From Pseudofulvimonas gallinarii (GTDB lineage Bacteria > Pseudomonadota > Gammaproteobacteria > Xanthomonadales > UBA2363), in contig NZ_SMAF01000019.1 in NCBI RefSeq assembly GCF_004343305.1, forward strand, positions 1-56,720: 56,720 nt of DNA, in the 5' to 3' direction. A model generated the notes under the pieces. That model did no database searches and had not been told where the DNA came from. It saw only the letters and a program-made list of their open reading frames with translations. Below are positions 5,816 through 31,800 of this stretch, piece by piece. A program made the position numbers and the translations under genes. Each line of letters begins with the position of its first letter. Positions within the stretch are counted from its first letter, which is position 1.

Positions 5816-8254
5816 TCAGTCCTGCCGCAGCGCGGTGAGGGGCTCGACGCGGAGGGCGAGGCGCGCCGGCAGCGCGGCGGCGAGCAGGGCGACCAGCGCC
5901 AGCACGGCGACGGCGAGCAGCCAGGCCGAGGGCTGCGCCGGACCGATCTCGTAGAGCACCACGCGCAGTTCGCGTGCGAGCAGCCAGACCAAGGGCAATC
6001 CGGGCAGCAGGCCCAGAAGCGCGGGACGCAGGGCCTGTCCCAGTACCAGCGTCAGCACACTGCCGCTGTCCGCGCCCATGGCGCGGCGCAGGCCCAGCTC
6101 GCGGGTGCGCCGCAGCACCGCGTGCGCCAGCGTGCTGTAGACGCCGATGCCGGCGAGAAGCAGGCCAGACAGCGCGAACAGCACGGTGATCCGGCTGATC
6201 GCACGCGGCATGGCGATGGCGGCATCGACACGATCCTGCAGCGGGCGCAGGTCGGCCATGGCCAGTGCCGGATCAAGCTGGCGGACCGCCTGGCGCATGC
6301 TGGCCATCACCGCCACCGGGTCGGAATCGCTGCGCACGGTCAGGAACAGGTTGCGGCGCGGCATCGCCTCCAGCGAAAGATAGGCGGTCGGCGTCTGTGC
6401 CTGGTCGACGCCGAAGAAGCGGAGGTCATCGACGACGCCGACGATGTCGAACCATTGCGTGCCGTCGTCCCCGTCGACGCCGAGGCGCCGCCCGAGCGGG
6501 CTCCTGCCATCGAAGTGCTGGCGCACGAAGGCGGCGTTGACGATGGCGGGCCGGGTGTGGCCGCTGGCGTCGCCGGGATTGAACCCACGGCCTTCGCGCA
6601 GGCGCACGCCGAGGGTGTCGAGGAAGTCGTGCGACACCCAGTTTATCCAGGCGTGCGCGCGGCCGTCGGCGCGCGCGCCCGCCTGTCCTTCGATATGCAA
6701 CAGTGCATCGGAGAAACTGCGCGACAGCGGAACGCTGGTCGAAAACGCCACGGCATCGACGCCGGGAATCGCCTGCAGCGATTCGCGCAGGCGCTGCTGC
6801 GCGCCACGGAGTTCCGGATCGTCCGGATAGGCCATCGACGGCAGCAGCAGGCCACCGGCGACGACACCCTGCGGACGGAAACCCAGGTCCACCTGCTGCA
6901 GGCACCGGTGGCTGTCCAGGAGCAGGATCGACGCCACCGTCACCGCCAGCGCCAGTGCGAAATTGCCGGCGACCAGCGCATTCGCCAGCCGGTTGCCGGC
7001 GCGTGCGCCGATGCTGCGCGCGCCGGTCTGCGCATTGGCGTCCGCCAGCGTGGCACGACGGGTCGCCGACGCCGACGCGCCTGCGATCACCAGTGCGACG
7101 GCGCCCGACAGCGTGATGGCGGCGAGCACGGCGCTCGCACCTGGCTGCACGTCCCAGGCCTGCGCGAAGCCCGGCGGGAACAGCGTGGTCAGCAGGCGCA
7201 GGCCGACGCCCGCCAAAAGCAGGCCGGCAAGGCCGCCGGCGACGGCCAGCTGCAGCGACTCGGCCAGCAGCAAGCGCCACTGCCGCCAGGGACTGGCGCC
7301 AAGGATCCCGCGCAATGCGAATTCGCCGCGTCGGCCGGCGCTGCGCGCGACCGCCAGGCTGGCCAGGTTGACGGTGGCGATGAGCAGCACCATCAGCGCC
7401 GCGGCCTGCAGCACCAGCACCTGCGCGCGGACATGGCGGCCCAGCGATGCCTGCAGGGGTTCGACGAACAGGCCGAGGCCGCGCTGGGTGTCGGGATACT
7501 GCCGGCGCAGCCGTGCGGCGAGCAGGTCCAGCTCCCGCTGCGCCTGTTCGATGCCGACGCCCGGTGCCAGTCGCGCGAACTGGCGCAGGGCGGCCTGGCC
7601 GCGATCGCCGGTCCGTTCCTGCAGCACGGCAAAGACCTCCGCCTCGGGCAGGTCGGGAAAACGGAATCCAGCCGGCATGACGCCGACCACGGTGTGGCGC
7701 ATGCGGTTGAATTCGACCACGCGACCGATCACGTCCGGATCACCGTTGAAGCGCCGCTGCCACAGTCCGTGGCCGATGACCGCGACCATGGGCGCGTCGA
7801 TCACGCCATCCTCCGCCGCGAAGCCTCGACCCAGCACCGGTTGCACGCCCAGCACCTGGAAGGCATTCCAGGTCGCGGCGCCGCCGACCAGGCGTTCGGC
7901 TTCACCGCGCCCGTCGCCGAGCACCGGATTCCAGCCGCGCCACGCGGCGATGCCTTCCAGGCTGCGCGCGTTGTCGCGCACGTCGAGGTAATGATCGAAG
8001 CTGGTCCACTCGCGGCGCGGATCCTGGATGCCGATCTCGCCTTCGATGCCGGATGCGTCGACCCAGACCGCCAGCAGCCGATCGGCCTGCGCGTAGGGCA
8101 GTGCACGCAGGAACACCGCTTCGACCATGGCCCAGGTCGCCAGCGTGGCGGCGCAGGCGATGGCCAGGGTCAGCACGGTTGCGACGGTGGTCAGCGGCGC
8201 CCGCAAGAGGCTGCGTGCGGCGGTGCGCAGGTCGTGCAGCGCGGTGGCGATCAT
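5816..8254 (-). CDS. ADOP-type FtsX/MacB-like ABC permease
   Basis: About 812 residues with two MacB-periplasmic-core plus FtsX units, the duplicated layout of the 'acidobacterial duplicated orphan permease' (ADOP) family. The N-terminal LRTAARSLLRAPLTTVATVLTLAI and FRFPDLPEAEVFAVL, and the C-terminal 'VGVVDDLRFFGVDQ...PTAYLSLEAMPRRNLFLTVRS', are typical. Membrane segments occur near the N terminus, in the middle (VLQAAALMVLLIATVNLASLA) and in a C-terminal group. The ATG at 8254 has GGGAG upstream; a much longer open frame extends further but lacks support. As the family name implies, no ATPase or adaptor gene is adjacent. The substrate is unknown; a separate MacAB set lies at 39-43 kb. Confidence 0.88.
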   Translation of the reverse strand: MIATALHDLRTAARSLLRAPLTTVATVLTLAIACAATLATWAMVEAVFLRALPYAQADRLLAVWVDASGIEGEIGIQDPRREWTSFDHYLDVRDNARSLEGIAAWRGWNPVLGDGRGEAERLVGGAATWNAFQVLGVQPVLGRGFAAEDGVIDAPMVAVIGHGLWQRRFNGDPDVIGRVVEFNRMRHTVVGVMPAGFRFPDLPEAEVFAVLQERTGDRGQAALRQFARLAPGVGIEQAQRELDLLAARLRRQYPDTQRGLGLFVEPLQASLGRHVRAQVLVLQAAALMVLLIATVNLASLAVARSAGRRGEFALRGILGASPWRQWRLLLAESLQLAVAGGLAGLLLAGVGLRLLTTLFPPGFAQAWDVQPGASAVLAAITLSGAVALVIAGASASATRRATLADANAQTGARSIGARAGNRLANALVAGNFALALAVTVASILLLDSHRCLQQVDLGFRPQGVVAGGLLLPSMAYPDDPELRGAQQRLRESLQAIPGVDAVAFSTSVPLSRSFSDALLHIEGQAGARADGRAHAWINWVSHDFLDTLGVRLREGRGFNPGDASGHTRPAIVNAAFVRQHFDGRSPLGRRLGVDGDDGTQWFDIVGVVDDLRFFGVDQAQTPTAYLSLEAMPRRNLFLTVRSDSDPVAVMASMRQAVRQLDPALAMADLRPLQDRVDAAIAMPRAISRITVLFALSGLLLAGIGVYSTLAHAVLRRTRELGLRRAMGADSGSVLTLVLGQALRPALLGLLPGLPLVWLLARELRVVLYEIGPAQPSAWLLAVAVLALVALLAAALPARLALRVEPLTALRQD

Positions 8255-8460
8255 GGCGGCTCCCGGAACGAAAACGGCTAGGCGTGGGCAGTCCTCGGAA
8301 CATGCAATCCGGGTGCCAACGGCCAGGCCGGCAATCCGCGGCGCCTTGCCGGCGATGTCGGGCCGGGTTGTCCGGACACGGACATCATCGCGTCCGGAAT
8401 CGTCGCGGTCACCGCCAACCGGCCCGGTCGGAGCGCTTCGATGCCGGCATGGGCGGGAGC

Positions 8461-9081
8461 TCAGTCCCCCGGCGTGATCGGTAGGCGCCAGACCAGGCAG
8501 CGATTGTTCGCCGGCATCGCCACGTCGGCGACCCCCTGTAATCCGGCAGCGCCTGCGAGGGCATTTACCCATTCGAAGTCGCGGATGCCCGATCGCGGGT
8601 CGCGCGCCTTCAGCCAGGCATCGAAGTCGCGGTTGCTGGCGCTGGTATGGCGGCCGCCGTAATTGAACGGCCCGTAGGCGACCACGGTGCCGCCCGGCAC
8701 GTCGGCGAGCAGTCGGCCGCAGCCGGCGAAGAATGCCTGCACGGCCGCCCGGTCCATGATGTGGAGTGTGTTGGCCGTGAATACCGCGTCCGCCGCCACG
8801 TCCGGCCATTCGCCCGTTACATCCAGTTCCAGCGCCGCCGGCGTGTTGGCCAGTGCGGCGTCGTCGAGCCAGGCCTGGATGCCCGCCAGGTGTTCCGGGC
8901 GGTCACTGGCCTGCCAGACCAGCCACGGCAGGTCGGCAGCGAAATGGACCGCGTGCTGCCCGGTGCCGCTGCCGATCTCCAGCACATGGCGGGCACCGGC
9001 GAAATGTTCGCGAAGCACATGGAGGATGGGATCGCGGTTGCGATCGCATGCCGGCGAATGCGGCTTGTCGGGGCGTTCCAT
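8461..9081 (-). CDS. DUF938 family SAM-dependent methyltransferase
   Basis: 206-residue soluble protein of the DUF938 family (PF06080). It has the SAM-binding glycine motif VLEIGSGTGQHAVHFA, followed by WQASDRPEHLAGIQAWL, ELDVTGEW, FTANTLHIM and YGPFNYGGRHTSASN, all characteristic of this family. The natural substrate is not known. It is transcribed away from the hybrid regulator gene at 9241; the 159-base gap should hold both promoters. Confidence 0.9.
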   Translation of the reverse strand: MERPDKPHSPACDRNRDPILHVLREHFAGARHVLEIGSGTGQHAVHFAADLPWLVWQASDRPEHLAGIQAWLDDAALANTPAALELDVTGEWPDVAADAVFTANTLHIMDRAAVQAFFAGCGRLLADVPGGTVVAYGPFNYGGRHTSASNRDFDAWLKARDPRSGIRDFEWVNALAGAAGLQGVADVAMPANNRCLVWRLPITPGD

Positions 9082-12200: not shown

Positions 12201-13341
12201 CGTCCGCTCCACCGCGACCGCCTGCGAGGTGCTGGCCGACCGCCAGCACCTGACGACGATCTTCGGCAACCTGGTGGACAACGCGCTCAAGCACGCGCCG
12301 CATGGCAGCAGCGTGGACGTCGATGTGTCATCGGACGACGACCATGTCTTCGTCGAAGTGGCCGACTACGGCCCCGGATTCGATGGCGAGGCGGCACAAC
12401 GGCTGTTCGAGCGCTTCTTCCGCGTCGCCGGCCCGCCGCGGCAGGGACGCGAAGGCCTCGGCATCGGCCTGGCGCTGGCGCGCGAACTGATCGAGCTGCA
12501 CGGTGGCCGCATCAGCGCGAAGAGCACGCCGGGCGAGGGCGCGACCTTCCGCGTCGAGTTGCCGCTGGGCAGCGCCCACGTCGCCCTCGACGAGCTGGCG
12601 CTGGATGCCACCAGTCCGGCAGCCGCGCCAAGGCCCGGCATGCCCGACCGCGGCGACGGCCGCGTGCTCCTGGTCGAGGACCACCCGGATCTCGCCGCCT
12701 ATCTGGCGGACCGCCTCGGTGAACACCTCCCGGTGACCAGCGTGGGCAGTGCCGAGGCGGCGCTGGCGGCGCTGGAAGCCGACCCGGGCATCCGGCTGGT
12801 CGTCAGCGACATCGTGTTGCCGGGGCAGAGCGGCATCGAACTGTGCCGCCAGCTCACCAGCGGGCCGTCGCCGGTGCCGGTCATCCTGATCTCGGCGAAG
12901 GCCGGCCGGGATGCGCGCCAGGCCGGCATGGAAGCCGGGGCCCGCGCCTATCTCGCCAAGCCGTTCGCTTTCGATGCCTTGCTGGCGGACATCGCCGCCG
13001 CCTGGCCGGCGGTCGCCCGACGCCTCGGAAGCGCGCCGACCGATCCGTCCGGGGCCGATCCGCTGCTGGCGATCGCCCTCTCGCGCCTGGAAGACCCCGC
13101 CTTCGCGGTCTCCGAATGGGCGGCGCGCGCCTTCCTCGGCGAGCGCCAGCTGCGGCGCCGCGTCAACGAGCTGACCGGGCAGTCGCCGCAGACCTGGCTG
13201 CGCGAGCAGCGCCTGCTGCGGGTCCGCCACCTGCTGGCCCGTGGCGAATGCCGGACCCTGGCCGAAGCCGGTGCCCGTGCCGGCCTGGACAATCCGTCCT
13301 ACCTCTACCGCAGCTACCGCGCCCGTTTCGGCGACCAGTAG
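9241..13341 (+). CDS. Hybrid two-component regulator (HTCS-like): sensor propeller, kinase, receiver, AraC HTH
   Basis: One protein of about 1366 residues holds a full signalling pathway. After a signal/anchor (ASLAGMLLVASLVNAG) come periplasmic two-component propeller repeats ('DGFLWVATHDGLARFDGE', 'GRVWIGNPGALFRSEGG'), a Y_Y_Y domain (about 710-790), one membrane span (about 800-818), a coiled linker, a HisKA domain with His896 in DVSHELRTPV, a HATPase domain, a receiver (about 1140-1250, phospho-Asp in VVSDIVLPG, Lys in AYLAKPF) and a C-terminal AraC-type HTH (about 1282-1366, LGERQLRRRVNELTG). This layout is best known from Bacteroidetes HTCS proteins that sense glycans and switch on neighbouring loci. 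Start choice is uncertain (GTG at 9235/9238, ATG at 9208). It probably controls the sulfatase and beta-helix genes downstream. Confidence 0.92.
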   Translation: MPRSTRSSFAKTCLRASLAGMLLVASLVNAGPGTRWVERQYGPADGLPVSSASAARIDADGFLWVATHDGLARFDGELFDVHDSMRFPAMSGNRVLTLHDDGDGRLYALTAHGDWLRVRSGQIDRVNLGAPLPVIHVDPPSLCVTTPAAVHCPDGSGAFPVRVQFPDGVLATKALPGHADDTWLLTVGGEIWRHRNGRWESAWSRPSGVAPLHSRPALVASDGSFWTSIEGPLLRISMAGEATVWDDVDAPHQVLQLREDASGRVWIGNPGALFRSEGGRPVKVFAVGGEGENGYHLSWQAPDGALWVRAGPRLWRFEDGDGPFDPRLPPVLHVQGLTQDLLFADDGAVWVMTLRGGLYRLVRARVELLDAGSPLGGGNVYGVTRDSAGTMWMGTLGDGIKGVDDRGNVQRLGSEEGLPGVNPWLVAAAPDGTLYAGTYAPGLWQRPPGAIRFEPVPLPDELFGEQVLALHFDDFDAMWLGSTAGAWRRDRQGWQRQWPLEGERRRVNALAMSGDAVWFGGAGGVWRRHGDGTHAVAPTLLANTSVRDLYVGRDGALWISTDGRGLIRVAADDPRGYRAIRLGRAQGLPSNSPHAVREDHEGHLWVNSNQGIFRLARGNLADLVDGRTRHLSPLVLGLSDGLTELEGNGGVQPSAAFDAQGRLWFPSQRGVVRFDPRAMSIRTRTPKAVIDTLESQGEPLSLPAGDPSLPVGVRSLTVRYAAADLHAGAALRFRYRLWPLQQGWTDALGSRTATFAGLGPGQYRFEVLAGNSDGIWASDPTVLEFEVPPRWYEMSTVRGAGLALLLLVAAGAVRLRGHRLRQRAVELDRQVHERTAELLTEKGRVESALAELSRAHAQLAQTHEQIEDSNLRLAAQAQRLEALDQFRTRLLADVSHELRTPVMLVSMPLEELSRNGRGLTAGQRDALAMSMRQLDRLGGLVEQLVGLVQVESGQMPLRASRFDIVAFLQELARGYRPVAEQAGATVVVRSTATACEVLADRQHLTTIFGNLVDNALKHAPHGSSVDVDVSSDDDHVFVEVADYGPGFDGEAAQRLFERFFRVAGPPRQGREGLGIGLALARELIELHGGRISAKSTPGEGATFRVELPLGSAHVALDELALDATSPAAAPRPGMPDRGDGRVLLVEDHPDLAAYLADRLGEHLPVTSVGSAEAALAALEADPGIRLVVSDIVLPGQSGIELCRQLTSGPSPVPVILISAKAGRDARQAGMEAGARAYLAKPFAFDALLADIAAAWPAVARRLGSAPTDPSGADPLLAIALSRLEDPAFAVSEWAARAFLGERQLRRRVNELTGQSPQTWLREQRLLRVRHLLARGECRTLAEAGARAGLDNPSYLYRSYRARFGDQ

Positions 13342-13394: not shown

Positions 13395-13433
13395 GATGTC
13401 CGCTCCGTGCATGCCGGCGTCCGGCCGGGGCAT
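13395..13433 (+). promoter_or_regulatory. Tandem direct-repeat operator candidate upstream of the sulfatase
   Basis: Two 18-base half-sites, gatgtccgctccgtgcat (13395-13412) and ggcgtccggccggggcat (13416-13433), agree at 13 of 18 positions and are 21 bases apart, i.e. two helical turns. The first half-site is identical to one at 18345, upstream of the beta-helix gene. The last half-site ends 85 bases before the sulfatase ATG. Head-to-tail sites on one helix face suit an AraC-type DNA-binding domain such as that of the preceding gene. Confidence 0.6.
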
Positions 13434-13517: not shown

Positions 13518-15734
13518 ATGAAACGCTCGCTCAACCCCGTCGGGCTGGCCGCGTGCCTGCTGCTTGCCGCCGCTGCCGCCCGTGCCGACACCGAACCCCC
13601 ATCCGCCGCGGCCGCGGGAGACCCCATCTTCGCGAACGGCTTCGAACAGCGACCCAACATCCTGCTTGTCATCCTCGACGACGTCGGCGTCGACCAGATT
13701 CCCTCCTTCGGCTACGGCGGCGCCAATCCGCCGAGCATGCCCACCATCGATGCGATCGCCGAAGGCGGCCTGCGCTTCCGCAACACCTGGGCGATGCCGG
13801 AATGCTCGCCAGGCCGCTCCACCCTGCTGACCGGCCGCTTCCCGATCCGGAGCAACGTGAACCAGGCCCTCGGGCCCAACGACCTGGCGAACTCGCAGGT
13901 CAATCCTTATGAAGTGACGGTGCCGCGCCTGCTCGACCATGCCGGCTACGTCAGCGGAAAATTCGGCAAGACCCACATCGGTGGCCCGGAAAACAACCAG
14001 GCCGGGCAGGGCGTGCTGGGCCAGCTCGGCTGGGACTATTTCCAGGGCTGGACCGAAGGCGTTCCGGCCTCCATCGACACCACGGCGGGCGGCGTCGCCG
14101 CCAGCGGCACCTACAGCTGCGGTTTCGTGCCTGATACTGCGCGCGATCCCGAAAACGGCGCCGACAGTGGCGCCTGCTACACGCGCGATGCGGCGGGCGT
14201 CACCTGCAGCCTGATCAGCGGCAACAGTCCGGAAGGCGATCCGCCCGGCCTGCAGTGCCTGACCCGCGGCGGCATCCTGGTCCCGGATGCGACCTGCCAG
14301 AACCCGGCGCCGGCGAACCTGGCCTGGGAAAAACAGAACGCGCACTACGTGTCCTCGCTGGTGATCAACGAAGGCACGGACGTCACCGAAGCCGGCACCC
14401 TCGATCCGCGCAGTCGCGGCTACCGTGCGACGCTGGAAGTCGATGCCGCCTCGGCCTGGATCCGCGAACAGCAGAAGGCCGGCCATCCCTGGATGGCGAC
14501 CGTCAGCTTCAGCAACGCGCACACGCCGATGCAGCATCCGCCGGCGGCCCTGCTTCCTTCCGGGGCCTCGGCACAGCTGCTGGCCGACTGCACCTCGGCG
14601 CGTCCGCTGAACATGCGTCGCCTCTACGACGCCATGATCGAGGCGACCGACACCGAGATCGGCCGGCTGATGCTGGAGACCGGCCTGGCGACCCCGGATG
14701 GCAACGGCGGCATCGTCTATGACCCCGCGGCCAGCAACACGGTGATCGTGCTGGTCGGCGACAACGGCTCGTTCTATTCGACCGTGAAGGTGCCGTTCGA
14801 TCCGTCGCGGTCCAAGGGCACCGCCTACCAGACCGGCGTCTGGGTGCCGCTGATCGTCTCCGGGCCGATGGTCAACGAACCGGGTCGGACCGTGGAACAC
14901 ATGGTCAACATGGTCGACATCTACCACCTGTTCGGCGAAGTCGCCGGGCTCGACGTGCCGGCACTGGTGCCGCGCGTGGTCGATGGCGCGTCCATGTACC
15001 CGTATCTCGTCGATCCGGCGCATCCGTCCATCCGCGCCTTCAACTTCACCCGCGGCGGATTGAACCTGCAGGCCAACGGCGGCCGCAACGGTCCCTGCGT
15101 CATCGGTACGCAGTGCTCGCACACGCCGATGACGAAGGCGATCTGCGAGGACAACAACGGCACCTGGTGGGGCGTCGGTGCGGACCCGGGTTCGGTGATC
15201 AAGGGCGACCTCGAGCAGTGCTGGCAGGTCAACCAGGTGATCTTCCACCAGGATCCAACGGCCTATGCCACCAACAAGGTGACGATGGGCCCGACCGACT
15301 ACCGCGCGATCCGCAACGAACACTTCAAGCTGGTGCGCAACGCGACCACGGACTACGACCCGGCGACCGATGCCGGCGTCGACGTGGTCAGCGAGGAGCT
15401 GTACCTGGTCAACCAGGCCGTGCCGGTGCCGTTGCTGGATCGCGAACAGCACGACCTGCTGGCCGACGGGAAGCTGACGCCGCACCAGGCGATCAACTAC
15501 GCGCAGCTGGTGCAGGCCCTCGAAGCGCTGCAGGACTCGGTGGTCCCGTGTCCCGGCGACGGCAACATCGACGGCCGCGTCGACCAGGCCGACATCGACA
15601 ACTACCACGCCATCGTCGCCGACTGGAGCGGGTCGAGTGTCTACGACTTCAATCTCGACGGCATCACCGACGACAGTGACCTGCAGATCATCCAGGACAA
15701 CCTGGGAACGGTATGTTTCACGATGTCGCCCTGA
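13518..15734 (+). CDS. Secreted sulfatase with C-terminal dockerin-like repeats
   Basis: 738-residue exported type I sulfatase. A signal peptide (MKRSLNPVGLAACLLLAAAAA) is followed by the tag DPIFANGFE at residues 35-43, and then the sulfatase fold. It has metal-binding Asp-Asp in NILLVILDDVG, the formylglycine motif C-S-P-G-R at Cys96 within ECSPGRSTLLTGR, GKTHIGG, and a C-terminal metal site VGDNGSF. Such enzymes remove sulfate esters, often from polysaccharides, after Cys96 is oxidised by a maturase; none is seen in the window. The last ~60 residues (GDGNIDGRVDQADID and DFNLDGITDDSDLQII) are two calcium-binding dockerin-type repeats. GGAGG before ATG supports the start. The 3' end overlaps the cytochrome gene by 22 bases. 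Confidence 0.93.
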   Translation: MKRSLNPVGLAACLLLAAAAARADTEPPSAAAAGDPIFANGFEQRPNILLVILDDVGVDQIPSFGYGGANPPSMPTIDAIAEGGLRFRNTWAMPECSPGRSTLLTGRFPIRSNVNQALGPNDLANSQVNPYEVTVPRLLDHAGYVSGKFGKTHIGGPENNQAGQGVLGQLGWDYFQGWTEGVPASIDTTAGGVAASGTYSCGFVPDTARDPENGADSGACYTRDAAGVTCSLISGNSPEGDPPGLQCLTRGGILVPDATCQNPAPANLAWEKQNAHYVSSLVINEGTDVTEAGTLDPRSRGYRATLEVDAASAWIREQQKAGHPWMATVSFSNAHTPMQHPPAALLPSGASAQLLADCTSARPLNMRRLYDAMIEATDTEIGRLMLETGLATPDGNGGIVYDPAASNTVIVLVGDNGSFYSTVKVPFDPSRSKGTAYQTGVWVPLIVSGPMVNEPGRTVEHMVNMVDIYHLFGEVAGLDVPALVPRVVDGASMYPYLVDPAHPSIRAFNFTRGGLNLQANGGRNGPCVIGTQCSHTPMTKAICEDNNGTWWGVGADPGSVIKGDLEQCWQVNQVIFHQDPTAYATNKVTMGPTDYRAIRNEHFKLVRNATTDYDPATDAGVDVVSEELYLVNQAVPVPLLDREQHDLLADGKLTPHQAINYAQLVQALEALQDSVVPCPGDGNIDGRVDQADIDNYHAIVADWSGSSVYDFNLDGITDDSDLQIIQDNLGTVCFTMSP

Positions 15735-18344: not shown

Positions 18345-18383
18345 GATGTCCGCTCCGTGCATGCCGATGTCCGATCCCTGCAT
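18345..18383 (+). promoter_or_regulatory. Tandem direct-repeat operator candidate upstream of the beta-helix operon
   Basis: gatgtccgctccgtgcat (18345-18362) and gatgtccgatccctgcat (18366-18383) agree at 16 of 18 positions and are 21 bases apart. The first copy is identical to the half-site at 13395. The second ends 84 bases before the ATG at 18467, against 85 for the sulfatase. A weaker partial match (atccga...cat) begins near 18325. The matching sequence, spacing and distance point to one shared regulator. Confidence 0.62.
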
Positions 18384-21400: not shown

Positions 21401-22582
21401 GGCGACGAACTGCTGCCGATCGCTGCCGATGGCAGCTTCGTCTTCGCGACGCCGCTGTCGACGGGCGACGACTACGTTGTGGCGGTGCAAGCGCAGCCGT
21501 CGCAGCCGGCCCAGTCCTGCGTCGTCATCAATGGCAGCGGCACCATGGGCGGTGTCCCGGTCGGCAACGTGGTGGTGAACTGCGGCTCCGCCGTGACCCA
21601 TTCGATCGGTGGCAGTGTCTCCGGCCTCACCGGCACCGGCCTGACCCTGCAATTGAACGGGGGTCCGACGCAGCTCGTGGCCGCGAACGGCCCTTACGCG
21701 TTCGGCCCGCGCCTGGCCGACGGTGCCAGCTACGTCGTCAGCATCTCGGAACAGCCGACCGGCCAGTGGTGCCTATTGTCGAATGCCACCGGCACTGTGG
21801 CCGGCAGCGACGTGGACAACGTCGATGTCGCCTGCACGACCGCCCAGGCGCAGCTGCAGCTGCAGATCGACGACGGCCACGCGTACACCCGCTACGGGCA
21901 GGTCCGCGACTATCTCGTGACGGTGTCGAACAGCGGCAACGCCGTCGCAAGCGGCGTGCAGGTCATTGGCACCTTCAGCCCCGCCTTCGATGTCGCCCAC
22001 GTCACCTGGTCCTGCCTGCCCGGCAGCGGCAGCCCATGCAGCGGCGGCGCCCATGGCCAGGCCGACGTGCCGGTGGGCGGCAGCGTGACCTGGATCGTCA
22101 GTGCGCCGATCCTGTTCCGCAGCACGGAATCCGAGGCCACGTTCACTGTCACCGCCGACGGGCTGGCAGACGCCGACACCAACACGCTGGTGATCCTGCG
22201 CGACGGTTTCAACGAGCCCTACGGTGATGGCGCCAGCGGCGCCGGCGAAGCGCAACCGCTGGCAGCGGACGAGATCGTGCTGCTGGACTGGAGCGGGAAC
22301 CAGCCTGGCGAGCTCGCCACACTGGGCCGCTTTGCCGCCGAAGGGGCCACCGTCGAAGTGCAGCGCCTGCACTGGCGGGGCACCTGGCTGGTGCGCCTGC
22401 TGGCCACCGATGCGGCCGGCCAGGAACGCAGCACGCCGTTTGTCGTCGTGGACAGCGGTGCCAGCCTTGGCCTGGCGCGTGTCGGCGACGCCCATGACAC
22501 AGGGATCGAGTGGCTGCTGGAAGGGGCCACGCAGCCGCTCTCCCTGTCCCTTGCCGACAACGTCGAGGACACCGGCCGATGA
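18467..22582 (+). CDS. Giant secreted beta-helix protein with two choice-of-anchor Q regions
   Basis: 1371 residues. A long n-region, hydrophobic core and AQAA cleavage site form the signal peptide; AAGGA precedes the ATG. The N-terminal half is a parallel beta-helix (repeated 'L.DVTI.GN', 'VEFVDNQATYGGGAIH') closing with the choice-of-anchor Q signature LLPGSPAIDAG...DIGAFE. A second beta-helix closes with AGSPAIDAG...HIDLGAYE. Then come a Calx-beta-like segment (SENGGTATFSIVLDRYPSAP), two 'GG.V.GL.GSGL.L.L..G' repeats ending in V-N-C, and a DUF11-like domain with LVILRDGFNEPYGDG. About 120 further residues follow that the paralogue downstream lacks. The stop overlaps the next start (ATGA). 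Function unknown; likely an adhesin or polysaccharide-binding surface protein. Confidence 0.85.
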   Translation: MVARPSISTVSPVTPHRAFPLLGFALLLTVICPAAQAATFEVVNANDSGTGSLRAAMTSALAQPGDHTITFSASVNGQPIVLDSPLPPMASNVTLRIHGNGVQDTIIDGNQQYRPFKAEWANNLQLHLRDLTVRNGFADQLEGGAGYFIGATNSKIFVQDVEFVDNQATYGGGAIHAQVPIQLTRVTFTGNRSYTHGAAMYLEADDTSLRDVTIAGNHAQVSVVRLSGPYAYTFTNVTIARNQTSSVTVHVRNDAQLALINSLIDAEDEVRPVMLLVEAGSSISQPASRNNLITWPGAGGLVDGSNGNIIREIDALVGPLGMYGGKTRTLPLLPGSPAIDAGPSSGAGSTDQRGVTRVGAPDIGAFESRGFSLAAVSGGGQAAPVSSTFPNPLVVGVTATHATEPVEGGKVAFSAPTAGASATFGNSVAVIDSDGRAQTTATANGVVGGPYHATATLGDVPAINFQLTNLTGVCGAFAFPYTLSASDNAERVAELRQAIECANGNGMADEIDLGGHTLTFSDGPYLSANGANALPVVTSALVLRNGTLRRAAPTSFRLLEIDASEETRLEDLTLRGGNSIREGGGLRVAGATSTLRNVVFDGNRSSIHGGAIYSEASMLVIGGARFSDNRAPDGAVISHDNFVLAMNLRVQEHDDVISRSLFHGSQILALINTLVAGNNLAATDSSLFDYTFRPELRGVTIADNRMTGMMVHSPDAGAIGHNIIIWDNEFAGLGHIGVQFAIVQGAPPGIEHVSGLPPGFVDPPHDYRLAAGSPAIDAGDRGYSWFDILDLDDNGVLDEYLPDLDVNPRLVDDANVADTGEGPAPHIDLGAYERQADSGPRGITVAGADGLQTSENGGTATFSIVLDRYPSAPVTIALSSSDTSEGVVAPATLVFTQADWNRPHVVTVMGVPDGVVDGDQTFQVEFEPAASADPGYDGLTLASVTVTNIDTDAVAPSLALGGTVIGLAGSGLVLDLNDGDELLPIAADGSFVFATPLSTGDDYVVAVQAQPSQPAQSCVVINGSGTMGGVPVGNVVVNCGSAVTHSIGGSVSGLTGTGLTLQLNGGPTQLVAANGPYAFGPRLADGASYVVSISEQPTGQWCLLSNATGTVAGSDVDNVDVACTTAQAQLQLQIDDGHAYTRYGQVRDYLVTVSNSGNAVASGVQVIGTFSPAFDVAHVTWSCLPGSGSPCSGGAHGQADVPVGGSVTWIVSAPILFRSTESEATFTVTADGLADADTNTLVILRDGFNEPYGDGASGAGEAQPLAADEIVLLDWSGNQPGELATLGRFAAEGATVEVQRLHWRGTWLVRLLATDAAGQERSTPFVVVDSGASLGLARVGDAHDTGIEWLLEGATQPLSLSLADNVEDTGR

Positions 22583-25167
22583 ACACTGCAACCGGAACGA
22601 ACGCAACCATGGCCCTGTCCATGCCATCGAGGCCGCGGCGGTTCCTTGCGCTGTCCGCCCTGCTCATGGGCTTCGCCAGCCCCGTCCTGCATGCCGGCAA
22701 CGACGTCTGTCGCGTCGCCACGGATGGCGCCGCCGGCCATGATGGCGCCAGCTGGGCGCAGGCGAAAACCCTGCACGACGCACTGGCGACGCCCACCTGT
22801 GGCGAGCTGTGGATCAAGGCCGGCGTCTATACGCCGACCACCGGCAGCGATCGGAACGCAAGGTTCAATGTGCGCGGCGGTACCGCGCTCTACGGCGGCT
22901 TCGACGGCACGGAGACGGATCGCGGGCAGCGCGATCCGGCAATCCACCGCACCGTGCTGTCCGGCGACATCGGTGGCGACGACATCGTCGACGAACATGG
23001 CATCACCCGGGATGCCTCCGACATCGTCGGCCTCAACAGCCACAACGTGGTGTGGATCGAGACGGCGGGCGACCTGCCGGTGCGGTTCGACAGCCTGACC
23101 ATCACCGCCGGCATGGCCAACGTCACCGAGCCGGTAGGGGCCCCGGCGGACGTTCGTTGCAGTGCAAGCGCCTTTGCCGATTGTGCGGGCGATCTGCTGC
23201 GGCCCCAGGGCGAGGAATCGATGCTGGGCGGCGGTGGCATCCACTGCACGGCCTGGCCGCCGGGCGAGGTTTGCGCCATTCAGCTGGACAGGGCCGTGCT
23301 GCGTGGCAACGTCGCCAATCAGTCCGGCGCCATGGTCTGCTACGCAAGCGACGGCGGCCACTGCCAGGTCGATATCGAAGCGAGCAGTTTTGTCGGCAAC
23401 GCGGCCCACAGCTGGGGCGGCGCGCTGGTGGTGGTGGCCAACACCGAATTCTCTTCCGCTTCCCTGGATGTGCGTACATCGACGTGGGCAGGCAACCGCG
23501 CCCAGCTCGGCGGCGCGATCGTGTTTGCGCCGTCTGGCACCGGCACCGAACACCTCGACCTGCGGCAATCCACGATCGTCGGGAGCCGGACGCCGGAGGC
23601 CGCTGCCGCGCTGATGCTTTTCGGCGCCGCTTCCGTCGGCATCGATGGCCTGTTCGCGTGGGACAACGGCGAGGACGCCTTCATGTTCGCTTTCGACACG
23701 GGCGCGATCGTGAGTCGCAGCCTGCTGCAGTACGGCTGCCCGCTTTACGTCAATTGCGGTTCGATGGTGTGGGGCGACCCGGGCCTGCTCCCGCTGCATG
23801 AAACGGGTGCGACGCCCCATGTCCCGGTGGCGGCGCACAGCGCCGTGGTCGACGCCATGGACTGTTCCGGATCGCCCGCGACGGACCAGCGTGGCGTGGC
23901 GCGGCCCCAGGGTTCGCGTTGCGACGTCGGCGCCTTCGAGCTGCGCCAGGCCAGGGTCGGTGTCGAGGCGACCGGCGGCGGCGCGGTGACGGCCGTGATC
24001 GTCCCCGCCCCGATGTCCGGCGCGATCCTGCAGTGCCGCCAGGATTCAGGCGACTGCCAGGCGCACTACGATCTGGAAACGTCGTCGCCGGAGCTGCGCC
24101 TGCTGCTCGTTCCCGATGCCGGCCAGCGCCTGGCGTCGGTTGCCGGTTGTGGCGGCCACCTCGCCGGCCAGGTCTGGGTGATCGACGCACTGGATGGCGA
24201 CTGCACCGTGACGGTGGACTTCGCCGAGCCGACCCATTCGGTCGCGGGCACCGTCACCGGATTGCTGGGCAGCGGCCTGTCGCTGTCGCTCGGCGGCGGC
24301 GAGCCACTGTCCATCGGCAACAACGGACCCTTCGCATTCAAGGATCTCCTGCCATCGGGCGCGGCGTACTCGATTGCCATCGTCACCCAGCCCGCGCAGC
24401 CGAGCCAGACCTGCGTGGTGTTCAACGGCAGTGGCGTGATCGACGGCCATGACGTCGACAATGTCGTCGTGCATTGCGGCCCGGTGAACACCTACACCGT
24501 GGGCGGCACGCTGTCCGGCCTGGCCATGGGCGGGAGTGTGGGCGTGTCCCTCAACGGCGGCCCGGCGCTGACGCTGGCCGCCAACGGCGCCTACGTGTTC
24601 CCGCAGATCTTCGGCAGCGGCGAAGGCTACAGCGTCGACGTGGTCCAGCAGCCCGATGGCCAGTACTGCGCCTTCGACCGTGACAGCGGCGTGGTCGGGA
24701 ATGCCCCGGTCACCGACCTGGACATCAGTTGCGTCGTGGGCGGAACGCAGTTGCAGCTGACGCTCAGCGACAACGGCGACTACGCCGCCTACGGCCGTGC
24801 ACGCAGCTACCAGGTCACGCTGAGCAACGCCGGTCCGGCCACCGCCACCGACATCGCCGTCAGCGCCACCTTCGATCCGGCCTTCAATGTCGATGGCGTG
24901 CAGTGGGCCTGTGTCACCGGCGCCCCGGGCGCCAGCTGTGGCGCTTCCGGTACCGCGGGCTTCAGCGACAGGGCAACGCTGCCGGCGGGTGCCACCGCGG
25001 TCTGGATCCTGGCGGTGCCGGTGCGCTTCGACAGCCAGGCCGCCGAGGCCACGCTGGTGATCCACGCCGACGGTGCAGCGGACGTCAGTGACACCAATAC
25101 GCTGGTGCTGTTCCGCGACGGCCTCGACGTGCCCTACGGCGAGGCCGGCGACGACCTGCTCGACTGA
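22579..25167 (+). CDS. Secreted beta-helix protein, paralogue of the preceding gene
   Basis: 862 residues, starting at the ATG that overlaps the previous stop. A signal peptide (ALSALLMGFASPVLHAG) leads into a right-handed beta-helix of the choice-of-anchor Q type (WIKAGVYTPTTGSDRNARF, ALYGGFDGTETDRGQRDP, closing with TDQRGVARPQGSRCDVGAFE). Cysteine pairs are more frequent than in its partner. Two 'G.V.GL.GSGLSLSL.GGEPL' repeats and a DUF11-like domain then mirror the partner's C-terminal part. It ends LVLFRDGLDVPYGEAGDDLLD, the same position and form as LVILRDGFNEPYGDG in the partner. The two probably work together at the cell surface; the role is unknown. Confidence 0.85.
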   Translation: MNTATGTNATMALSMPSRPRRFLALSALLMGFASPVLHAGNDVCRVATDGAAGHDGASWAQAKTLHDALATPTCGELWIKAGVYTPTTGSDRNARFNVRGGTALYGGFDGTETDRGQRDPAIHRTVLSGDIGGDDIVDEHGITRDASDIVGLNSHNVVWIETAGDLPVRFDSLTITAGMANVTEPVGAPADVRCSASAFADCAGDLLRPQGEESMLGGGGIHCTAWPPGEVCAIQLDRAVLRGNVANQSGAMVCYASDGGHCQVDIEASSFVGNAAHSWGGALVVVANTEFSSASLDVRTSTWAGNRAQLGGAIVFAPSGTGTEHLDLRQSTIVGSRTPEAAAALMLFGAASVGIDGLFAWDNGEDAFMFAFDTGAIVSRSLLQYGCPLYVNCGSMVWGDPGLLPLHETGATPHVPVAAHSAVVDAMDCSGSPATDQRGVARPQGSRCDVGAFELRQARVGVEATGGGAVTAVIVPAPMSGAILQCRQDSGDCQAHYDLETSSPELRLLLVPDAGQRLASVAGCGGHLAGQVWVIDALDGDCTVTVDFAEPTHSVAGTVTGLLGSGLSLSLGGGEPLSIGNNGPFAFKDLLPSGAAYSIAIVTQPAQPSQTCVVFNGSGVIDGHDVDNVVVHCGPVNTYTVGGTLSGLAMGGSVGVSLNGGPALTLAANGAYVFPQIFGSGEGYSVDVVQQPDGQYCAFDRDSGVVGNAPVTDLDISCVVGGTQLQLTLSDNGDYAAYGRARSYQVTLSNAGPATATDIAVSATFDPAFNVDGVQWACVTGAPGASCGASGTAGFSDRATLPAGATAVWILAVPVRFDSQAAEATLVIHADGAADVSDTNTLVLFRDGLDVPYGEAGDDLLD

Positions 25168-25200: not shown

Positions 25201-25310
25201 AAGGGCGATGCGCGGTGCCGCGTGGGTACGCGGCTTCCGCGACGCCAGCTGCAAGTTTCACATTGTCGTCCTGCCATGTCGGCGACGGCTGCGGCACAAT
25301 GGCCACCATC

Positions 25311-28300
25311 ATGCCCGTCGACGGACAACCGGATTTCCGGCTCTATCATTCCAACGCGCTGGACGTGCTCGCCGGCATCCTCGCCGAGGTGCTGCGCCAG
25401 CCGCTGCCGGACGTGTCGCCGCTGCAACCGGAAACGGTGCTGATCCCGCAGGTGGCGATGCGCCGCTGGCTGCAGGCGACGCTGGCACAGCAGCACGGCA
25501 TCGTCGCCAACATCGAGTTCCTGACGCCCGGTGAATTCGTCGGCCGCGTCCTCGACGCCAACGTCCCCGGCGGCGATGACGACCTCGACACGCCGGCGCT
25601 GCACTGGCGCCTGTACGCGGCGCTGCGCGACCGGGCGCTGCTGGCGCGGCCGGCGATGGCGCAGATCGCGGCCTACCTGTCGGCATCGGCGACGGACGCA
25701 GGCGATGCGCTCAAGGGCTGGACGCTGGCCGGCGAGCTGGCATCGGTGTTCGAGAAATACCAGGCCTGGCGCCGCGACTGGCTGCTGCGCTGGGAGGATG
25801 GCGCCGATCCCGATGACCCGCAGGCGATCCTCTGGCGCGTGATCGCGGCCAGCCACAGCTATCGCGCCCGTCGCATCCAGCACTACCTCGACCGCTTCGG
25901 CGCGGACGACCGTCCGTTGCCGCAGGGCCTGCCGGCGCGGCTGTTCGCGTTCGCGACGCTCAATGTCTCGCCCGACGTGCTGCGCATCATCGCCAGCCAG
26001 GCGCGCGTCGGCACGACACACTTTTTCATGCCGACGCCGTCGCGGAACGACTGGGGTGACATGGAGGTGCTGCGACAACGGTTGCGCGAGGGCGAAGCCG
26101 ATCCGCTCGCCGACAGCGCCGGTGACAACCGCCTGCTTCGCGCATGGGGCGCGGCCGGTCGCGATTTCGTCGCGCTGCTGGGCAGCTATGAAGTCGTCCA
26201 TCCGCGCGGCGAGGTCAGCGCCTTCGTCGATCCGGACCGTCGAAGCGGCAGGACGCTGGCCGGAGACGGCCTGTCGGACAGCCTGCTGCACCGCCTGCAG
26301 GGCGACCTGTTCCATCGCCGTCCACCGCCACCGGCGGTTGCCGGTGCGGACGACCCGCGTACGCCGCTGCCGGGCGTGCGCTGGAACGATCCCAGCCTGC
26401 AGTTCCACGCCTGCCATACCCGCCTGCGCGAACTGCAGGTGCTGCACGACCAGTTGCGCGCGCTGTTCGAGGACAAGCGCTTCGATCCGCCGCTGCAGCC
26501 GCGCGAGGTCGCGGTGCTGGCGCCCGACATCGACCTGTACGTGCCGTACCTGGACGCCGTGTTCGGCGCCGGTGCCGAATCCGCGCGCATTCCCTATGCC
26601 GTCGCCGACACCAGCCCGCTGGCCGGCGAGACGCTGGCCGATGTCTTCGTGCAGCTGCTCGGCCTGCCGGTGTCGCGCTTCGGCCTCGGCGAGATCCTCG
26701 ACCTGGTGGCCAGTGCCCCGATCGCCGACGCGGCCGGGCTCGACCTGCCGGCGATCGAACGGCTGCGCGGCTGGCTGCAGGAAGCCGGTGCCCGCTGGGG
26801 ACTGGACGCGCGTCATCGCGAAGCACACGAAGCGCCCGCCGATTCCTCCTGCACCTGGCAGTTCGCGCTCGACCGCCTGATACTGGGACATGCCACCGGT
26901 ATCGACGCCGACATCAAGGCCGGCGACGGCCTGGTCGCGCCGCTGCCGCTGCTGGAAGGCAGCGCGCTCGATGGACTCGACACCCTGGTCTCACTGCTGC
27001 GCCGCCTGGTGCGTTTCCAGAACCGGATGGGGCAGGCGCAGACACCGGCGCAATGGCGCGAGCTTCTGCTTGGCATGCTCGACGACCTGCTGCCGGTGCC
27101 GCCGGGCGACGACGCCGGCCAGCGCGCCCTCAAGCGCCTGCGCACGCTGGTCGATGATTTCGCCCGCGATGCCGAACGCGCCGGCTTCGACGAGGCGGTG
27201 TCCTGCGACATCGTCAGCCACCACTTCGCATCACGGCTGTCGGATGCCGACACGCGCGCGCCGCTGCTGACCGGTGGCGTCAGCTTCGCGCGCATGGTGC
27301 CGATGCGCCTGCTGCCGTTCCGGGTCATCTGCGTGCTCGGCCTCAACGACGGCGACTACCCGCGCCGCGATCCGGCCTTCGGGCTCAACCGCCTGACCGC
27401 GGTGCGCGGCTCGCCGGCGTGGCGGCCTGGCGACCGTTCGCTGCGCGACGACGACCGCTTCCTGTTCCTGCAGCTGTTCGCTGCCGCCCAGGATGTGTTC
27501 TACGTCAGCTACCTGGGCGCCGACCCGCACGATGCGAGTACCCGCGAGCCTTCGGCACTGGTCAGCGAACTGCTCGACGAAGCCGCACGTCAGCATGCGG
27601 ATGCGCCGGCCGCCGCGAAGGCGCTGGTAGTCAGACACCCGCTGCAGCCTTTCGCACCGGCCGCCTTCGGTGCCGAGGGCGAGCCGCGACGCTTCAGCTA
27701 TCGCGGCCACTGGCATGCGGCGGCAGCCGCCCTGGCCGGCCACGCCCGTTCGCCGCTGCCGCCCTGGTTCAGCGGGGCGCCGCTGCCGATTGAGGACACG
27801 CCGGCGCGCGTGTCGCTGGATCAGCTGCGTCGCTTCCTGATGTCGCCGGCCCAGGCCTTCATCGAACAGCGCCTCGGCCTGCGCCTGCCGGAGATCGACG
27901 AAGGCGTGGAAGACCGCGAGCCGCTGCTGCCGCCGTCGCAGGGTCTAGAACGCCATGCACTGCAGCGGGCGGTGTTCGAAGGCGTCCTGCGCGGCGAGGA
28001 CGATGCGCTATTGCATGCGCGCCTGCGTGCCCGCGCGCTGTTGCCGGCGAACCGCATCGGACTTCGCGCCCTGCAGGACCTGCGTGACCAGTTGGAACCG
28101 TATGCGCGCGCATTCGCCCGCTGGCGCGATGGGAAGATGCCCGGATCATCGGGCTGGCTGGAAGTCGAAGTCGGCGGGACCGTCATCCATGGACGCCTCG
28201 ACGATGTCTATGAGCACGGCATCATGCGCCTGCGCTTGGGCAAGCGCAGCGGTCCGTCGGTGATCCGGCATGGCCTGGACTGGCTGCTCGCCAGCGCTGC

Positions 28301-28835
28301 CGGCCTCGGGTTGCCGCTGGTCGAGTTCCATGAAGCCGACGACGGCCCCGGACCCCATCCGCGCGCGTTGCTGCAGCCGGGGGAAGCGAAGGACGCCCTA
28401 CGGACACTCTTGGCGCTGCGCCTTCGCGGCCTGTGCGCGCCCCTGCCGTTCGCGCCCTACAGCGGCTGGGCCTTCTTCAACGCCGGCGACGACGGGGAGG
28501 CTGCCCTGCGCGCCGCCGCGCAATGCTGGCATGGCGGCGAATACCAGTTCGGTGAAAGCGGGCATCCGGCGATCCAGCTCGCGTTCCGCGGCCATGATCC
28601 CTTCGCCGACGATGACAGCAGCACCGCCTTCGCCGAACTGTCCAGGACGATCTTCTCGGCGCTCACGCCGGCCGCCGGCAACGATGGCGACAAGGCCAAG
28701 GGTGACGGCGGCGGTGCCGGACCCGACAGCGGCCCCGATGCCGGTGGCAGCCCGCCCGCCAAGGCGCCATCGCGCAAACGAAAGGCGGCCGCGCCGGACT
28801 CGACGCCCATCAAGTCATTCAGGGTGACCGGATGA
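25311..28835 (+). CDS. recC: RecBCD enzyme subunit RecC
   Basis: About 1174 residues, close to E. coli RecC. The N-terminal RLYHSNALDVLAGILAEVL matches the start of RecC (YHSN...LDVL), and later motifs such as DDDRFLFLQLFAAAQDVFYVSYLGAD and LNDGDYPRRDPAFGLNRL are typical. RecC is the inactivated helicase-like subunit that holds RecB and RecD and reads Chi in single-stranded DNA. An ATG four codons upstream (25299) is possible, but 25311 aligns better with RecC and lies ten bases after a CACAAT -10-like box. The last ~55 residues are a Gly/Asp/Pro then Lys/Arg-rich tail (about 1120-1160) absent from E. coli RecC. The stop overlaps recB (ATGA). Confidence 0.95.
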   Translation: MPVDGQPDFRLYHSNALDVLAGILAEVLRQPLPDVSPLQPETVLIPQVAMRRWLQATLAQQHGIVANIEFLTPGEFVGRVLDANVPGGDDDLDTPALHWRLYAALRDRALLARPAMAQIAAYLSASATDAGDALKGWTLAGELASVFEKYQAWRRDWLLRWEDGADPDDPQAILWRVIAASHSYRARRIQHYLDRFGADDRPLPQGLPARLFAFATLNVSPDVLRIIASQARVGTTHFFMPTPSRNDWGDMEVLRQRLREGEADPLADSAGDNRLLRAWGAAGRDFVALLGSYEVVHPRGEVSAFVDPDRRSGRTLAGDGLSDSLLHRLQGDLFHRRPPPPAVAGADDPRTPLPGVRWNDPSLQFHACHTRLRELQVLHDQLRALFEDKRFDPPLQPREVAVLAPDIDLYVPYLDAVFGAGAESARIPYAVADTSPLAGETLADVFVQLLGLPVSRFGLGEILDLVASAPIADAAGLDLPAIERLRGWLQEAGARWGLDARHREAHEAPADSSCTWQFALDRLILGHATGIDADIKAGDGLVAPLPLLEGSALDGLDTLVSLLRRLVRFQNRMGQAQTPAQWRELLLGMLDDLLPVPPGDDAGQRALKRLRTLVDDFARDAERAGFDEAVSCDIVSHHFASRLSDADTRAPLLTGGVSFARMVPMRLLPFRVICVLGLNDGDYPRRDPAFGLNRLTAVRGSPAWRPGDRSLRDDDRFLFLQLFAAAQDVFYVSYLGADPHDASTREPSALVSELLDEAARQHADAPAAAKALVVRHPLQPFAPAAFGAEGEPRRFSYRGHWHAAAAALAGHARSPLPPWFSGAPLPIEDTPARVSLDQLRRFLMSPAQAFIEQRLGLRLPEIDEGVEDREPLLPPSQGLERHALQRAVFEGVLRGEDDALLHARLRARALLPANRIGLRALQDLRDQLEPYARAFARWRDGKMPGSSGWLEVEVGGTVIHGRLDDVYEHGIMRLRLGKRSGPSVIRHGLDWLLASAAGLGLPLVEFHEADDGPGPHPRALLQPGEAKDALRTLLALRLRGLCAPLPFAPYSGWAFFNAGDDGEAALRAAAQCWHGGEYQFGESGHPAIQLAFRGHDPFADDDSSTAFAELSRTIFSALTPAAGNDGDKAKGDGGGAGPDSGPDAGGSPPAKAPSRKRKAAAPDSTPIKSFRVTG

Positions 28836-31800
28836 GCGGCGCATCCGAAGACCGCTACCTGAAGCTGTCCCTGGAAGGCGTGCATGCCATCGAGGCATCG
28901 GCCGGGACCGGCAAGACGTTCACGCTGGCGACGCTGGTGCTGCGCCTGCTGGTCGAGTGCCGCCTGCGCATCGGCGAAGTCCTCGCCGTCACCTTTACCG
29001 ATGCGGCCACACAGGAACTGCGGGCACGCATCCGCGCGCGCCTGCTGCTGGCGCTGAAGCTGCTTGACAGCGACAGGGCGGCACTGGATCCGCCGGATGC
29101 GAAGGTAACCGCCGCGGTGCTGAAGTCGTGGCTGCGGAAGAGTGGCGAGTCGCAGGCCGCGCTGCGGCTGCGCCTGCGCGAAGCGGCAGATGGCATCGAC
29201 CTGGCCTCGATCTTCACCATCCATGGTTTCTGCGCCCGCGTGCTGCGCGAGCATGCTTTGGAAAGCGGGCAGGGCTTCGATGCGCCGGAACTGCTGGCCA
29301 ACGATCGCCATCTGCGACGGGAGGTCGCCGCCGACCTGTGGCGTGCGCATGCCGTGGATCCCGTCGATGCCGACGGCTTGCTCGCATTGTGGCCGGAGGG
29401 CCCGGAGGCGCTGGCCGATGACCTGCCGGTGCTGGCAGCGGACATCGAACTGCGACCGTCGCGGCCGTCCAGGCCGGCAGACCCGACGCAGGAACTGCGG
29501 GATGCCGCCGACGCCCTGATGGCGGCGGTGCGCGACGACGGCGAGCGCTTCCGCAAGGCCCTCCTCGAGGCCATGACGGCGAAGGTCCTCAACGGCAACA
29601 GTTTCAAGGCGGGCTGGGTGCACGCGCTGTTCGACGACCTGCGCGCGTGGACCGAGGCCGGCGACAACGCGGTCCGGTTCCCCACGGACCTGCTGGCCAG
29701 GCTCGACCGCGACTTCCTTCTGGGCAAGACCAACAAGGGCAAGGAGGCGCTCTGTCCCGACTCGTCCATGTGCGCGGCTGTCAGGCGCTACGGCGAAGCG
29801 CAGCAGGCAATGGCCGGCTTCCTCGAACTGCGCTGCGCGCAGCTGCTGCACACCTTGCGTGCCGAAGCGCGCCATCGCCTGTCGCGGCGCAAGGCGCAGT
29901 TGCGCGTGCTGACCTATGACGACCTCATCGACCGCGTTGCCGATGCACTGACCGGTCCCTTCGCCGGGTCGCTGGCGATGCGGCTGCGCCAGCAGTATCG
30001 CGTCGCCCTCGTCGACGAATTCCAGGACACCGATCCACGGCAGTGGCTGATCTTCAACCGCGTTTTCGGCGCCGACAGCGACGCGCCGGCGCTGTTTCTG
30101 ATCGGCGATCCCAAGCAGGCGATCTACGGATTCCGCGGCGGTGATGTCGACACCTACCTGGCCGCGGTGCGGACTGCCGATGCCGCGCCGCCGCTTGACC
30201 GCAATTTCCGCTCGCGTCCCAGCGTGCTGAAGGCGGTGGAAACGCTCTACGACGCGGCCGGCGACGACGCCTTCCTCGTCGAAGGCATCCGCTTCCATCC
30301 GGTGTCGCCCGGCGGTGTACGCGCGGATGAGGATTTCCGGCTCGACAGGTCGAAGGCACCGGCGCTGACCATCTGGCAGGCGCCGCAGCCGGAGGCGGAC
30401 GGGAAAGGCAGGATCAGGTCCTACACCGCCGAGACGGCCCGTGCCCTTGCGACGCGCGCCTGCGTCGCGCAGATCCATCGCCTGCTCTCGGCGGCGCGTA
30501 CGGGCGGCGCGACGATCGACGGCGAAGCGCTGCGCCCCGGCCATATCGCCGTGCTGGTCCGTGCCCATCACGAGGCCACGCGTATCCGCGATGCATTGGC
30601 GGAAGCCGGCATCCCGGCGGTGGCAGCCGGACGGCGCAGCCTCTTCGACACCGCCGAAGCGCTGGAACTGCACGCACTGCTGCTGGCGCTGCTGCACTCG
30701 GCCGATGACGGCCGCCTGCGCGCGGCACTGGCAACGGTGCTGGTCGGCATGGACGCCCGCGCGATCGCCGGGCTCGATCGCGACGGACCGGCCCTGCGCG
30801 ACGCACGCCTGCGCGCGCTGCACTGGCGCGAGCGCCTGCAGCGCGGCGGCGTGCTCGCGCTGGTCAACGAGTTGTGCGCCGCGAACGCCGGACGGCTGTT
30901 CGGCCTGCTCGACGGCGAACGTCGGGTCAGCAATTACCTGCAGCTGGCCGAACAGTTGCAGGATGTGCAGGCGCGGACGCTGGGACTGGCCGGCCTGGTC
31001 GACTGGCTTGCGCGCGCGATCGCGGAGGCCGACAGCAGCGACGAGACACAGATGCTGCGTCTGGAATCCGATGCCCGCCGCGTGCAGGTGTTGACGCTGC
31101 ACAAGAGCAAGGGCCTGGAATATCCGCTGGTGTTCCTGCCCTTCGCCACCATTGGCGGCAAGACGCGCTCGCCCGGCCGCCACGTCACCGTGCGCGAGTC
31201 GGGCCGCCGCGTGCTGCACTGGAGGTTGCCGCTGGCCAACCCGGGATGGACGCAGGCGGCCGTCGCCTGGGAAGAGGCGCAGCGCGCCGAGGACGCGCGC
31301 CTGCTCTATGTCGGCCTGACCCGCGCCAGCCACGCGCTCTGGCTGGCGACTGGACCGTTCAATGGCCAGGCGGCGACCCCGCTGGGCCGGATGCTGGCCG
31401 ACCTCGGCGCGCTTGCGCGCGCGGGGAAGAAAACGATCCGGCTGGATGACGGCACGCCCCCGCAATCGCTGGCCTGGCTGCCGCCGGACGGCGACGGCAT
31501 GCTGCCGCCGGCACGACGGCCGCGGCGATCGCTGGCTTCCGACTGGTGGATCTACAGCTTCACGCAGTTACGGCACGCCGACGCCGGACACGCGGCAACG
31601 GCCGCGGCGACCGAAACGCCAGCGGCCGCCGCCGACGAGCCGGCACTGGACGTCGCCGACATCGACGCCGGCACGGTGGGCACGATCGATGCGTTGCTGG
31701 GCGGCTCGCGATTCGGCAACGCCCTGCATGCGGCGCTGGAACGCGTCGATTTCGCCGCCTGGTCGGACTGGCGTCCGGGCGACGGCGCGCCGCCGGGACA

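Follow-up and report, generated by a model that had tools for sequence, protein, structure and literature searches.

The window, by which we mean the whole stretch of 56,720 nucleotides analysed here (Pseudofulvimonas gallinarii, contig NZ_SMAF01000019.1, positions 1 to 56,720), carries the gene of a hybrid two-component regulator of 1366 aa (P0004; 9241..13341, + strand), defined from Pfam matches and its translation. Its domains are a Reg_prop beta-propeller, Y_Y_Y, HisKA, HATPase_c, a receiver and HTH_18. The sensor part matches Reg_prop (PF07494, 1.7e-25) and Y_Y_Y (PF07495, 1.1e-9) in Pfam and presumably lies in the periplasm, while PF00512, PF02518, PF00072 and PF12833 occur in the one polypeptide, all above the curated cut-off. 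The AraC-type HTH_18 domain (13117..13332, +), delimited by domain search and HTH alignment, is the proposed DNA binder. The alpha3-beta4 loop of the receiver reads SPVP (by eye, from the translation alone). A MacB/FtsX-type permease gene (5816-8809, -) is divergent from the regulator gene.

The first candidate target is a sulfatase gene (P0005; 13518..15734, +; Pfam PF00884), with a Shine-Dalgarno-like GGAGG before its ATG and a product whose N-terminus is hydrophobic and, by eye, signal-peptide-like. Its C-terminus (15540-15734) has two EF-hand-like repeats that we take to recall a dockerin; it has no Pfam match at 1e-3. The second gene of this target encodes a multihaem cytochrome c / HEAT / TPR protein identified by Pfam (P0002; 15713..18070, +), which overlaps the sulfatase gene by 22 bases if read from its first ATG. 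The second candidate target encodes a right-handed beta-helix protein with Chlam_PMP/POMP repeats and a choice-of-anchor Q domain (P0003; 18467..22582, +; domain searches). It may be followed in the same operon by a further choice-of-anchor Q gene (22510..25167, +; first-start ORF), the product of which has a DUF11 match below threshold. Behind the beta-helix genes, recC, recB and recD-like genes lie in a row (25215-34323). No SusC or SusD was found in the 16 window ORFs scanned with Pfam, out of 133 mechanical ORFs in total.

Both candidate targets are preceded by a tandem 39-base site, at 13395-13433 and 18345-18383. The word GATGTCCGCTCCGTGCAT is present at 13395 and at 18345 and each time has a second copy 21 bases on. 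In operator 1 the distal half-site lies at 13395..13412 (+) and the proximal one at 13416..13433 (+); in operator 2 they lie at 18345..18362 (+) and 18366..18383 (+), all four located by pattern search. A sequence-only reading of this DNA had reported the shared 18-mer and the related half-site exactly 21 bases downstream in both places, and both are as it stated. Its count of 16/18 matches within the second pair also stands, but the first pair matches at 12/18 positions and not at 13/18. The distances of 85 and 84 bases to the start that it gave, counted to the A of the ATG, are the same as our gaps of 84 bases (ATG at 13518) and 83 bases (ATG at 18467).

Over their 39 bp, sites 1 and 2 are identical at 32 positions, and the longest exact word common to both has 22 bases (GATGTCCGCTCCGTGCATGCCG); only 19/60 and 18/60 positions are identical in their 60-bp flanks. 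Inside the half-sites the near-palindrome ATGTCCG-N3-CGGACAT is kept at 10-12 of 14 positions in distal halves and at 7-13 of 14 in proximal ones. Mechanical ORFs on either strand overlap the operator sites. Neither sigma-70-like promoters near either window site nor terminators near the operator sites were found, and the sites therefore cannot be placed relative to a -35 element.

A search of the 3.45-Mb genome for the tandem pattern with up to two mismatches returned three copies, and none when the pattern was read backwards. The third site (G000 C1:341424-341462; L003:1501-1539) is followed, after 101 bases, by the ATG of a beta-helix gene, whose product is 38% identical to P0003 over 559 columns and has Chlam_PMP/POMP repeats. 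The sequence-only reading had proposed such a search and had named many copies inside genes as the outcome that would speak against an operator; as there are only three copies, each read as upstream of a gene, this objection fails. A stricter pattern, again with up to two mismatches, was matched in 1 of 299 genomes of the order, namely the host genome with its three sites. It misses the sites of relatives, described below, because these are too diverged. In two genomes of the same genus no site was found at E 0.02.

Several controls bear on chance. With up to three mismatches, GATGTCCGCTCCGTGCAT has 3 matches in the window where 0.20 are expected, and 0 of 100 shuffles reach 3. Some repeated 18-mer is held by 70 of 200 Markov sequences of window length; none of the same 200 has a repeated 18-mer whose two copies both have a 12/18 match at +21. 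By itself, the tandem character of site 1, whose proximal half is weak, falls short of significance, since 12/18 is reached in 91 of 200 resampled 400-bp stretches. Single half-sites of the looser form GNNGTCCG-N6-GCAT, with one mismatch at most, show hardly any enrichment (17 found, 11.7 expected; 17 is reached in 5 of 100 shuffles). We dropped single half-sites as evidence, being near chance level; what carries weight is the shared word together with pairing and conservation. Apart from this word, the only exact 18-mer repeat on the window's + strand is a direct repeat of 20 bases at 1884 and 2165.

Orthologues of P0004 were found at E 1e-80 in 6 of 121 sampled genomes of the order, the host included, with 5 candidates per genome scored. 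At E 1e-100 they were found in 5 of 43 genomes of the family of G098 and 2 of 9 of the family of G021, sets that overlap the 121 genomes. None was found at E 1e-60 in the two genomes of the same genus. Four are close orthologues, one in G021 and three in a single other genus (G098, G123 and G208, the last with a regulator gene cut by a contig end), thus representing two genera and two families other than those of the host; they are 44-48% identical to P0004 by BLAST and 46-50% by genome search. Five are distant (G072, G033, G016, G228 and G172; 29-31% identity by BLAST). With P0004 as query, a collection scan turned up 3 distant loci, and a plasmid collection scan gave only matches of <60% identity among the best 5000 records.

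In all four close orthologues a beta-helix-like gene adjoins the regulator, with a diverged tandem site before it. A half-site matrix built from the three own sites alone, run on the window with 7 of 51 loci and then on 7 of 59 loci, has its top match in each locus at this site: L046:9255 (+) in G021 with 27.0 bits, L045:11805 (-) in G098 with 19.3, L056:2446 (-) in G123 with 23.1 and L057:7070 (-) in G208 with 23.3. The intergenic DNA holding the match follows the regulator gene in G021 but a response-regulator gene in G098, G123 and G208; it measures 352, 99, 100 and 223 bp respectively within loci of 9-19 kb. The G021 and G098 sites were first spotted by eye in the intergenic DNA and the matrix was applied afterwards; for these two loci, ten Markov controls each gave maxima of 14.3 (L046) and 14.4 (L045). 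The next unrelated matches scored 10.0 in L056 and 9.7 in L057, omitting the response-regulator sites and an overlapping match of 16.0 in L056. A further match in G021, which at 16.3 bits exceeds the control maximum of 14.3 for that locus, falls inside the beta-helix gene.

The beta-helix call is made from likeness to P0003 in G021 (E 6e-25; Pfam shows Calx-beta), from such likeness together with Chlam_PMP repeats in G098, from likeness alone in G123 (E 1.2e-8) and from POMP repeats alone in G208 (34.1 bits). Further tandem sites were located between the regulator and response-regulator genes of G098 (L045:12607, 6.3 bits), G123 (L056:3014, 17.4 bits) and G208 (L057:7872, 10.4 bits). These three rest mainly on their place and their boxes, since only that of G123 exceeds noise with the own-only matrix. 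HTH_18 is present in the response regulators of G098 and G208 and missing from that of G123. From site to likely start codon the distance in relatives is mostly 56-92 bp, the exceptions being the beta-helix genes of G208 (180 bp on) and G123 (at 23, 92 or 185). A short frame in G208 (L057:6851-7031, -), between the operator and the beta-helix gene, starts like the beta-helix gene of G098 and soon stops, as if it were a gene remnant.

The five distant-orthologue loci yielded no site; their best scores, 12.0-16.4 at offsets of 20-22, never fell directly behind the regulator gene. A blind search for self-similarity at 20-22 bp offsets in the 400 bp behind regulator genes gave 13/18 in G021 (5 of 200 resamples) and 13/18 at 20 bp in G228 (4 of 200), and no signal for G033, G016, G172 and the host's own C28 paralogue. 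The test is a weak one, because operator 1, G098, G123 and G208 are also silent in it. The distant HTCS locus of G072 has a different direct repeat, CACAACCTGGGTGATA / CACAACCTCGGCGATA (L047:5787-5826, -; 22 bp, 15/18, 0 of 200 resamples), behind the regulator and ~77 bp upstream of the likely ATG of a beta-helix-like gene; it is perhaps the operator of that HTH subtype.

The comparison was also run in reverse. A model made from the seven sites of relatives alone was searched against the window and 12 of 101 loci (195,938 bases), and its three matches up to E 10 are the three own sites: site 2 at 5.8e-4, the third site at 0.015 and site 1 at 0.039, the latter two partial. This test is not wholly independent, because likeness to the own sites helped to choose the training sites. 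On the whole host genome, only site 2 reaches E 0.02 with this model (E 0.0104). Under stricter filters, 6 of 151 whole genomes had a match at E 0.02: three training genomes, the host, G134 and G149. We took the matches in G134 and G149 (E 0.017-0.019) as chance, since about 3 are expected at E 0.02 in 151 genomes.

A ten-site profile, whose training set includes the three own sites, revealed no fourth site in the host genome among the best 150 of 4535 first-look candidates, scores dropping from 30.0 to 13.6 bits after the three. Across 15 genomes the ten-site model gave E <1e-3 only at its ten training sites, followed by G208:C240 (E 0.0031), G098:C113 (E 0.0152), G123:C262 (E 0.021) and G021:C27 (E 0.0371). 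Those in G208, G098 and G123 lie inside apparent genes and were taken as chance; in G208 and G123 the gene is of one and the same kind, with the match on its opposite strand. The G021 match (L105:3358-3396, -; 16.8 bits) is not clearly inside a gene and lies ~1.6 kb before a stretch resembling the propeller part of P0004.

Invariant over the ten sites are G4 C6 C7 G8 and, 21 on, G25 C27 C28 G29; C16 and T39 are also common to all ten. In the HTH alignment, P0004 and its four close orthologues have a one-residue insertion in common, along with two recognition-helix regions, RQLRRRV.EL and DN..YLYR.YR. These features recur in part in the response regulators of G098 and G208; all five distant orthologues and the own C28 paralogue lack them. 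Site and HTH subtype thus occur next to each other in five genomes, which belong to three families. Operator and HTH subtype go together in this comparison: the close set shares helices and sites, and the distant set and the C28 paralogue do not. The earlier suggestion that the HTH encoded just upstream is the natural binder gains support from this comparison, with site and subtype co-occurring in five genomes and neither found in the two genomes of the same genus. On the strength of these sequence comparisons, we consider it highly likely that P0004 binds the tandem sites.

Two other readings of the sites have to be set against binding by P0004. They could be real operators of a different regulator, either another HTH_18 protein, of which the genome has five beside P0004 (six matches at E 0.001), or a dimer reading the near-palindrome, which some half-sites approach at up to 13/14 positions. 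We give this little credence: the sites accompany P0004 orthologues across families, the C28 paralogue (the one of the five covered by the helix comparison) lacks the shared recognition helices, and likeness to the palindrome varies among halves, in contrast to the invariant boxes of the 21-bp repeat. Alternatively, the shared word could be due to chance, to a small dispersed repeat or to local duplication in the recent past; repeated 18-mers do turn up in many Markov sequences, and the window itself has another exact repeat. Yet in two further genera, each of another family, diverged copies keep their position next to the regulator, which makes this reading extremely improbable. A dispersed repeat is ruled out by the total of three copies in the genome, and a local duplication by the unrelated flanks of sites 1 and 2.

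Binding by P0004 leaves the direction of control to be weighed. P0004 might repress the operons, or both repress and activate them; the want of a recognisable promoter against which to place the site leaves room for this, as does a receiver loop reading SPVP by eye where Bacteroides HTCS have S/CHIP. We regard it as unlikely, given binding. AraC-type regulators with direct repeats upstream of the promoter are mostly activators, and the gaps from site to start (84, 83 and 101 bp in the host, 56-92 bp in most relatives) are wide enough to hold a promoter downstream of the site. Activation is hence the likelier direction, from site position and the habit of such regulators, and we are less sure of it than of P0004 as the binder.

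Very probably, then, the 39-base site is a switch through which P0004 controls secreted proteins, as it precedes three operons and diverged versions adjoin the same regulator gene in relatives. The periplasmic beta-propeller would sense a ligand, and kinase and receiver would pass phosphate within one protein. The AraC-type HTH domains of a dimer would then bind the two direct half-sites, which are spaced by two helical turns and so share one DNA face; each half-site contains a GNCCG box and, roughly one turn further, a CAT-like box. Bound P0004 would most likely activate three small operons: the sulfatase with the multihaem cytochrome/TPR protein, the neighbouring beta-helix protein and the remote second beta-helix protein. 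What the analysis shows directly is the sites, how rare they are, where they stand relative to genes, and that they are conserved beside orthologous regulators of one HTH subtype. Binding, control by phosphorylation, activation over repression and the signal are what we infer here, and the order from sensor through kinase and receiver to HTH dimer follows from domain order and family. That the signal is a sulfated or surface polymer is a guess, made because the targets are a sulfatase and beta-helix proteins.

We think it fairly probable that this is a small HTCS regulon outside Bacteroides, thinly spread over at least three families, which governs beta-helix surface or secreted proteins and not glycan import, and in which the operator stayed with one HTH subtype as the targets changed. 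If so, the changed targets are the response regulator in one genus, and the sulfatase-cytochrome operon and remote beta-helix gene in the host. The regulator-operator pair would offer a readable code outside Bacteroides, where HTCS operators were worked out, with three target operons defined. One signal would tie together a sulfatase, a multihaem cytochrome and beta-helix proteins whose role is not known, so that their function becomes testable. HTH helices and half-sites that go together would also be material for how these domains choose DNA.

Similar operators are known from one-component regulators. At araI1-I2 of E. coli AraC and at XylS/Pm, an AraC-family HTH meets two direct half-sites at a distance of ~21 bp, and within each half-site two boxes are spaced by about one helical turn. 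AraC and XylS bind ligands themselves, whereas the HTH of P0004 would act at the end of a phosphorelay, and its boxes have other sequences. The closer likeness is to the HTCS of Bacteroides, which, in the account of Ravcheev et al. (2013; PMC3878776), join sensor, kinase, receiver and AraC-type HTH in one protein as P0004 does. Their motifs are described there as direct repeats at an average distance of 21 bp, read as bound by dimers on one DNA side, and, as here, they lie beside the regulator gene with some distant members. The lineage here is another one, and the likeness lies in regulator class and operator geometry. In titles and abstract openings of the open-licence literature, a weak basis, no such HTCS operators turned up beyond Bacteroides and other bacteria that use glycans. 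P0004 also seems, by eye, to lack S/CHIP, a motif of the receiver alpha3-beta4 loop that PMC11253607 ties to keeping the DNA-binding domain off without phosphate; at 84-98% per position in the HTCS of that study, it is typical and not defining. SusC/SusD, usual in Bacteroides though likewise not defining, are absent from the scanned ORFs. P0004 and its probable operators are of a known HTCS kind with unusual targets, a sulfatase, a multihaem cytochrome and beta-helix proteins.
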